64,000 bases of DNA from Fibrobacter sp. UWB13 (GTDB lineage Bacteria > Fibrobacterota > Fibrobacteria > Fibrobacterales > Fibrobacteraceae). Of the stretch, positions 11,630 to 48,483 are shown one piece after another. The stretch is from contig NZ_FXAX01000002.1 of the NCBI RefSeq assembly GCF_900177805.1, forward strand, positions 372,001 through 436,000. Direction: 5' to 3'. Every line of letters starts with the position of its first letter. Position 1 is the stretch's first letter. The translations under genes and the position numbers were made by a program. Below the pieces are notes generated by a model. The model was not told where the DNA came from and made no database searches. It worked only from the letters and a program-made list of their open reading frames with translations.

Positions 11630-12526
11630 ATGAATTTCGAAAACATGAACTTGTTGTCGCAGAAGGTTGAAAGCGTCCTCGGAACAGTACGCGCCCTGCG
11701 TGAAGAAAACGCCAAACTCAAACAGCTTCTCGAAGGCAAAGACGCCCAGGCAGAAGACCAGAAAAACTTGTTGGACTCTGCTAACGCAAAGATCGCCGAC
11801 TACGAAGCCGCCCTCAATGCAAGAGCCAACCAGGCTGCCGCACAGGACGAAGCCATCAACGAAAAGAATTGCATTATCGACAACTTGAACGCTCAAATCA
11901 ATGAAAAGAATGGTATCATTGACGCCCTTAACGGTCAGGTCGCCGAAAAGAACGGAATCATCGACGCTCTCAACGGTCAGGTCGCTGAAAAGGACAACGC
12001 CATCAATTCCTTGAACGGACAAGTTAACGAAAAGAATGGCATTATCGACAGCCTCAACGGACAGATCAACGAAAAGAACGGTATCATTGACGCTCTCAAC
12101 GGTCAGGTCGCCGAAAAGAACGGAATCATCGACGCTCTCAACGGTCAGGTCGCCGAAAAGAATGGCATCATCGATGCCCTCAACGGTCAAGTCGCCGAAA
12201 AGAACGGAATCATTGATTCCCTCAACGGCCAGATGGACGAAAAGAACAACATCATTGATTGCCTCAACGGTCAGATCGCTGAAAAAAACGACATCATTGA
12301 CAACCTTAACAACCAGGTCCAGAACCAGGGCAACGAAATTTCCGAAGCCCAGAGCAAGTTCCAACAGCTCCTTTCTACGATCGAAAGCGAACTCGGCACC
12401 GAAATCAATATCAACGAGCCGGCTGCAGAACAAGCACCAGAACAGCAGGCTGAAAATAAACCTCAAGAAGAAAACCCTGACCTGTTCGCGAGCAATGGAG
12501 GCTCGCAACCCGGTTTTTTCGGCTAA
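11630..12526 (+). CDS. ZapB-like coiled-coil protein with eleven 14-residue repeats
   Basis: A predicted soluble coiled-coil protein of 298 residues. The N-terminal region (MNLLSQKVESVLGTVRALRE, then ENAKLKQLL) looks like ZapB or related cell-division coiled coils. Residues 78-231 are eleven tandem copies of EKNGIIDALNGQVA or a close variant. The period of 14 is two heptads, with Ile, Ile, Leu and Val at hydrophobic positions. The C-terminal 65 residues are Gln/Glu/Pro-rich and probably disordered. It sits 45 bases upstream of zapA in the same direction, and small ZapB-like genes adjoin zapA in other bacteria. I infer a divisome-associated scaffold whose length varies by repeat number. ZapB itself is only about 80 residues, so orthology is not proven. 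The start has a GGAGA site five bases upstream. Confidence 0.75.
   Translation: MNFENMNLLSQKVESVLGTVRALREENAKLKQLLEGKDAQAEDQKNLLDSANAKIADYEAALNARANQAAAQDEAINEKNCIIDNLNAQINEKNGIIDALNGQVAEKNGIIDALNGQVAEKDNAINSLNGQVNEKNGIIDSLNGQINEKNGIIDALNGQVAEKNGIIDALNGQVAEKNGIIDALNGQVAEKNGIIDSLNGQMDEKNNIIDCLNGQIAEKNDIIDNLNNQVQNQGNEISEAQSKFQQLLSTIESELGTEININEPAAEQAPEQQAENKPQEENPDLFASNGGSQPGFFG
11861..12322 (+). repeat. Eleven 42-bp in-frame tandem repeats
   Basis: 462 bases = 11 x 42, coding for the 14-residue units. Units 2, 3, 6, 7 and 8 are identical in protein but differ at third codon positions. Units 3 and 7 differ at about one base, suggesting duplication of multi-unit blocks as well as single units. 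Unit 4 (EKDNAINSLNGQVN) and the end units 1, 10 and 11 are the most divergent. Confidence 0.9.
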
Positions 12527-16685: not shown

Positions 16686-16767
16686 GGAGATGCCCTCCCC
16701 ATACGCGGATCATGACTACTAAGCAGCAAAGCTGCAAGTAGTCAAAGAGATCAAGTCGGGCATGACA
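16686..16767 (+). repeat. Intergenic hairpin repeat, copy F (nested-insert type)
   Basis: The outer stem GATGCCC/GGGCATG encloses a shared insert (CCCCATACGCGGATCATGAC ... GTCAAAGAGA) with its own nested hairpin, GACTACT...AGTAGTC outside and CAGC...GCTG inside. The paired copy is at 27508-27593. Confidence 0.85.
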
Positions 16768-27507: not shown

Positions 27508-27593
27508 AAGGCGATGCCGTCCCCATACGCGGATCATGACCACGTAAGAGCTAAAGCTCTAAGTGGTCAAAGAGAACGGTGTCCGGCATGACA
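27508..27593 (+). repeat. Intergenic hairpin repeat, copy G (nested-insert type)
   Basis: The outer stem GATGCCG/CGGCATG encloses the same insert as copy F. The nested stems are GACCAC...GTGGTC and AGAGCT...AGCTCT. Relative to copy F, paired positions change together in both the outer and inner stems. Confidence 0.85.
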
Positions 27594-27671: not shown

Positions 27672-27725
27672 GGAGATTCCGGCTTACTTCGACTCCGCTC
27701 AGCACAGGCTCTGGCCGGAATGACA
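27672..27725 (+). repeat. Intergenic hairpin repeat, copy H (30-base loop type)
   Basis: ATTCCGGC and GCCGGAAT pair around a 30-base loop that differs from that of copy A at only a few positions, while the stem sequence is different but still fully paired. Confidence 0.85.
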
Positions 27726-33646: not shown

Positions 33647-33742
33647 AATTAGTTATCAGCTGTTGGTCATTAGTCAATAGCTTAAGCAGCTGAAGCCATC
33701 ACGGCTTCTAACAACTAATGACCAATGACTATTGACTGCACT
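33647..33742. repeat. Inverted pair of 7-base-period tracts with central hairpin
   Basis: The left arm TTGGTCATTAGTCAATAG and a related right arm in reverse orientation (CTAATGACCAATGACTATTG) flank a small hairpin GAAGCC-ATCAC-GGCTTC at 33692-33708. Each arm is built from TTAGTCA/TTGGTCA heptads, as in the tract at 48436-48483. It fills the gap after the PBP1A gene. Confidence 0.75.
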
Positions 33743-48435: not shown

Positions 48436-48483
48436 GTTGTTAGCGATTAGTCATTGGTCATTAGTTGTTAGTCATTAGTTAAT
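48436..48483. repeat. Imperfect 7-base-period tract, TTAGTCA type
   Basis: Five to six heptads in a row: TTAGTCA, TTGGTCA, TTAGTTG, TTAGTCA, TTAGTTA. This is the clearest tandem form of the family and lies upstream of the enolase gene. Confidence 0.75.

Follow-up and report, generated by a model that had tools for sequence, protein, structure and literature searches.

A genus-wide, covarying and probably mobile insert of 53-54 nt in the REP-like palindromic repeats of Fibrobacter

The window analysed here, a stretch of 64,000 nucleotides from Fibrobacter sp. UWB13 (contig NZ_FXAX01000002.1, positions 372,001 to 436,000), carries two copies of a repeat unit of 82-86 bp, both read from the sequence and both on the + strand. 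Copy 1 begins with a left part (16686..16695) made of GGAG (16686-16689) and the 5' arm ATGCCC (16690-16695), and the same left part occurs in plain host repeats of relatives. It continues with a 53-nt segment, hereafter element A (TCCCCATACGCGGATCATGACTACTAAGCAGCAAAGCTGCAAGTAGTCAAAGA, 16696..16748), whose boundaries were taken from the comparison of filled and empty sites at other loci, and ends with a right part (16749..16767) composed of GATCAAGTC, the 3' arm GGGCAT and GACA, so that the host remainder is GATCAAGTCGGGCATGACA. The hairpin of element A in this copy (16714..16743) pairs GACTACT (16714-16720) with AGTAGTC (16737-16743) and, further inside, GCAGC (16723-16727) with GCTGC (16731-16735). 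Copy 2 shows the same arrangement: a left part (27510..27519) with GGCG (27510-27513) and the 5' arm ATGCCG (27514-27519), a 54-nt element A (TCCCCATACGCGGATCATGACCACGTAAGAGCTAAAGCTCTAAGTGGTCAAAGA, 27520..27573), and a right part (27574..27593) with GAACGGTGTC, the 3' arm CGGCAT and GACA, the host remainder being GAACGGTGTCCGGCATGACA. Its hairpin (27538..27568) pairs GACCAC (27538-27543) with GTGGTC (27563-27568) and AGAGC (27547-27551) with GCTCT (27556-27560). Both copies, with the stems and the shared unpaired parts attributed to them by the first-pass annotation, were found as described, and neither copy is an inversion of the other, an origin that had been named as a possible refutation. 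A 20-mer common to both copies has a chance expectation of 0.01 in the window at three mismatches or fewer; it occurs 20 times in the genome that carries the window (G000), versus 0 for the reversed control. Other repeats lie in the same window, namely two hairpins that resemble the host but differ in their inner part (TTACTTCGACTTCGCTCA..) at 1425-1478 and 27672-27725, which represent another filled form of the host repeat, a perfect inverted pair of 24 nt (CTAACAACTAATGACCAATGACTA) at 33708-33731 and 48448-48471 that is part of another dispersed repeat (TTAGTCATTGGTCATTAGT), and a run of 42-bp tandem repeats within an open reading frame at 11813-12358.

When the copies of this genome were read with their flanks, they shared a common plan consisting of GG[A/C/T]G, a six-letter arm, the insert, a short remainder, the complementary arm and GACA, the sole exception being L014, which departs from it at the foot. 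The insert follows a plan of its own, TCCCCATWCGCGGATCATG-hairpin-TCAAAGA. Plain hosts of one subclass, lacking the insert, are present at least 45 times in G000, against 0 in the control. The hosts of element A vary while the insert stays the same: ATGCCG, ATGCCC, ACCCCG, GATCCTTC/GACTCCGCTCAGGATGAC and GGCTCTGC/GAGCC were all found, the GATCCTTC|GACTCCGCTCAGGATGAC host with element A in several species, and the insert also sits in palindromes of other sequence (CCCTTC|GGG and CTCGAG|GTTCGAG). At further orthologous sites the host hairpin is absent or replaced by a different one, and hence the host repeat layer is also in flux. Two components make up the unit of 82-86 bp: a host palindrome of REP-like form (GG[A/C]G-arm ... 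arm-GACA) and, inserted in it, a distinct segment of 53-54 nt. The earlier reading of one nested hairpin holds as far as the stems are concerned, but the outer stem belongs to the host repeat and the inner part to a separate mobile insert, as seven comparisons with empty sites indicate.

These comparisons rest on loci of G000 for which a relative has the same flanks around a plain hairpin. At window copy 2, the sequence GAAGGCGATGCCG|54 nt|GAACGGTGTCCGGCATGACAACGAAAAAG faces GAAGGCGATGCCG|GAACAGAGTCCGGCATGACAACGAAAAAG at the orthologous site of the relative G043 (L095), where exactly the 54 nt are absent. Six more loci, L018 (with L107 and L108), L010-L111, L014-L113, L016-L109, L003-L106 and L015-L116, bring the total to seven. 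The insert measures 53 or 54 nt throughout, except at L018, a shortened copy of 38 nt. At window copy 1, a plain GGAGATGCCCAATCAAGTCGGGCATGACA is found in the corresponding gap of G043, but its flanks are not clearly homologous and this pair was left uncounted. No target-site duplication was found at the seven pairs, one junction letter being ambiguous, and element A has no terminal inverted repeats, since its ends, TCCCC... and ...AAAGA, do not pair in this way. The insertion point lies between C or G and G near the top of the host 5' arm, and wherever the host could be scored (120 contexts), the orientation of element A relative to it is the same. Such constancy speaks for an insertion agent that recognises the host.

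The first-pass annotation had proposed covariation from the two window copies, and this is statistically borne out on 17 full units, where covariation extends to the host arms, and on a set of 41 distinct 54-nt inserts from many species. In the latter set, 97.3% of the cells pair; double-change cells number 45 versus 12.8 after shuffling (reached in 0/500 shuffles), and the covariation score is 0.273 versus 0.094 (0/500), slid versions of the alignment giving at most 0.064. The number of pairs changed on both sides (4 versus 3.0, 104/500 shuffles) is not unusual because only four pairs vary in this manner. The stems are nearly devoid of G-T pairs: a single one was counted among 664 in 57 distinct inserts, versus 30 of 458 (6.6%) in 21 tRNAs from the same DNA, a comparison that is crude because the copies are related and not independent. 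This favours a fold kept as DNA, or a correction of one arm from the other, over RNA; of the two forms of fold left open by the earlier annotation, RNA or single-stranded DNA, it is thus the DNA-level one that is indicated. The correction of imperfect palindromes, in which one arm is copied from the other, is an established form of bacterial mutagenesis. Applied here, it would produce the paired changes by mutation during replication and not by selection on the fold, and the nearly perfect Watson-Crick pairing with few intermediates is what it would leave behind. Against this stand the asymmetric internal loop ATA/AA, which is kept in element A without being corrected, and a C-T mismatch kept likewise in a large subfamily, while the invariant unpaired ends argue for a function. 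As the source of the covariation, arm correction is rather unlikely, yet it could contribute part of the pattern. The paired changes are confirmed; selection on the folded form is plausible but unproven.

Within single genomes, the hosts of copies with identical inserts differ at an average of 5.7 of 24 positions; of 43 such pairs, only two show no host difference. Joint copying of host and insert would leave the hosts as similar to each other as the inserts are, which is not observed; identical inserts in clearly different hosts of one genome thus indicate that the insert moved on its own. This bears directly on the possibility of a single BOX-like modular repeat family, whose long and short forms would have been spread together by recombination and whose plain forms would have lost the middle through precise deletion. 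A partial correlation between host type and insert subfamily does exist and fits some joint copying. The L018 site is moreover patchy among species: G052 has both A and a second element, B, at this site, whereas G043 and G001 are empty there. As the site is empty in the nearer relative G043 and filled in the farther G052, precise loss, target reuse or recombination between strains also occurs. The G000 copy (L018:1464-1532) lacks the inner hairpin, as a deletion between CACTAAGTG direct repeats would explain, and these repeats are still present in L191, where G052 carries A+B at the L018 site. A modular family is nevertheless improbable given the divergence of hosts around identical inserts and the presence of inserts in palindromes that bear no relation to the main host. 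Furthermore, the exact loss of 53-54 nt at seven sites without flanking direct repeats would be unusual.

Element B, about 80 nt long, lies in the loop of A in three of the 20 copies of element A in G000, and these three are identical to the letter. In other species it occurs within copies of A from either stem subfamily as well as alone in host hairpins. The two placements, in the A loop or directly in host hairpins, are seen at L007:1500-1632, L009 and L012, and at L188-L193, L101, L133 and L284, with a small hairpin after AAGGCGAG..GAGCCGAA. Judged by eye and from single folds, its stems vary yet remain complementary around the fixed AAGGCGAG and GAGCCGAA. Two B-bearing copies, L192 and L009, have mismatched A inner arms (AGAGCT/AGTTCT and AGTGCT/AGTTCT), as if recombined within B. 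An element with the plan of A and almost unrelated letters (ACCTAAAGGTGGCCATGCGCACTATGGAACAAAGTTCCAAGTGCTGTCCGC) takes the position of A in GGAGATTCCC hosts at L121, L227, L096 and L312, and a variant of this ACCTAAAGGTGGCCATGCGCACTATGGAACAAAGTTCCAAGTGCTGTCCGC element was seen once with B nested inside (L284). At L052:1373-1844 (G054:C40), moreover, a larger unit is arrayed in tandem, three copies of element A lying within direct repeats of 209 bp.

The distribution of element A was assessed with a covariance model (R1) in 80 Fibrobacter genomes and in 167 genomes of the phylum. Matches were obtained in 79 of the 80 Fibrobacter genomes at E<=0.01 and in 68 at E<=1e-5. At the latter threshold, the model also matched a single genome from a different genus of the family and none of the remaining genomes among the 167 of the phylum. 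In a named collection, the matches belonged to Fibrobacter and Fibrobacterales records, together with one contig labelled Paludibacteraceae, from horse faeces, that carries an element A copy (L277) and is probably a Fibrobacter contig binned wrongly. The viral contigs searched gave no match to element A.

The search for a mobilising enzyme was directed at three families. The Y1_Tnp domain is present in 27 of the 80 Fibrobacter genomes and absent from 53, and it was not found in G043 (24 copies), G046 (28), G001, G008, G052 (44) or G054 (41). A RAYT or other Y1 transposase was rejected as the mover on account of this absence from most copy-rich genomes. The single Y1 transposase gene of G000 (L021:1501-1857) is IS200-like by inspection, with neither element A nor the host repeat alongside. 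Reverse transcriptase (RVT_1) and IS110 transposase were rejected in the same way, both being absent from G000, G043, G046, G005 and G001, which are complete and copy-rich genomes. The genomes may have lost the mover later on.

The lack of RVT_1 genes in these five genomes also weighs on an RNA route, by which a transcript would fold, join a hairpin target and be copied into DNA. A stable fold, covarying stems and invariant unpaired segments are what such a route would call for, and RNA intermediates have reportedly been proposed for the nested insertion of small structured pieces in Nostoc. Mobility through a structured RNA is nonetheless quite improbable, as G-U pairs are nearly absent from the stems compared with the tRNAs and as no strand preference exists among tandem genes, between which element A lies in both directions (17 versus 29). 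More generally, 114 of the 120 contexts in the longer loci are intergenic according to a longest-ORF gene model, and convergent gene pairs (36) outnumber divergent ones (17) around element A. This context is the habit of REP-like elements and not that of a cis-regulatory RNA. A conserved regulatory RNA or mRNA 3' structure serving the host cell, which the covariation, the intergenic position and the many copies at gene ends might evoke, is very improbable in view of the presence or absence of the element at the same gene ends among close relatives, of its two orientations without fixed neighbour genes, and of the absence of any relevant Rfam family (window searched at the gathering threshold, loci with A and B at E<=1).

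Taken together, we consider it likely (probability of about 0.68) that element A is a separate non-autonomous mobile element inserted into REP-like palindromic host repeats and moved in trans, likelier as folded DNA. It would move as a folded single strand, DNA being likelier than RNA, and would be recognised through the hairpin together with the unpaired ends, which do not vary. The receiving host palindrome would be extruded or single-stranded as well, and the strand would be joined to it by an enzyme acting in trans and presumably falling outside the three families tested. A broader proposal, offered as a tentative possibility, is that Fibrobacter possesses a route joining folded single strands of 53-80 nt to hairpins without duplication, Y1, IS110 or reverse transcriptase, and that covarying hairpins were nested by it genus-wide to three levels (host, A, B). 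Since target choice, orientation and fold can be read from the sequence, the way in which such pieces move with no obvious transposase can be tested directly in a rumen genus that grows in culture. These results also show that a functional RNA need not lie behind paired changes between two copies of a repeat.

No published description of the element A family was found in the open-access literature. The small dispersed repeats (SDR) of Nostoc punctiforme, reportedly described by Elhai et al. in 2008, are repeats of 21-27 nt, embedded in other repeats, nested, with compensatory changes and confined to one lineage. They share with element A a very small size, mobility, an embedded and nested position, compensatory changes in a common fold and restriction to one lineage. 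Indeed, element A is dispersed, shorter than 100 nt, embedded in other repeats, nested and marked by compensatory changes. It differs from them in its length of 53-54 nt, its sequence and its fold, in its REP-like hairpin sites with fixed orientation, and in the empty sites that define its exact ends. SDR are mentioned in PMC3116915, and REP/REPIN elements with RAYT transposases are described there and in PMC2817692. The host repeat resembles the latter as a short intergenic palindrome in many copies with a GGAG/GGCG tetranucleotide (GNAG-like) before the stem, but most of its carrier genomes have no Y1/RAYT gene and the only one of G000 is IS200-like and not beside the repeat; element A itself is not a REP doublet. 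In the BOX elements of Streptococcus pneumoniae, the outer boxA and boxC close the structure and the inner boxB is present or absent (PMC3049150). Host and element A are similarly modular, with an optional inner module having its own fold, whereas boxB forms tandem arrays and element A is a single insert, no sequence relation is known, and element A is not confined to one outer module, being also found in GATCCTTC/GACTCCGCTCAGGATGAC, GGCTCTGC/GAGCC and CCCTTC/GGG. Correia/NEMIS and other MITEs are likewise small non-autonomous repeats, with a longer Neisseria form containing an internal segment of 50 bp (PMC2229807), but element A has neither terminal inverted repeats nor target duplication. 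REP sequences are also targets of IS elements, including IS110/IS1111 types (PMC1525189, PMC11208160, PMC11187229). Their site-specific insertion into REP palindromes is reminiscent of element A, which in contrast is geneless and 53-54 nt long, IS110 genes being absent from complete A-rich genomes. Element A would rank among the smallest bacterial mobile elements whose exact ends are defined by empty sites. The closest precedents are the Nostoc SDR, the pneumococcal BOX and the REPs, and the family described here is a real, genus-wide, covarying mobile insert, new as a family and of a generally known kind.
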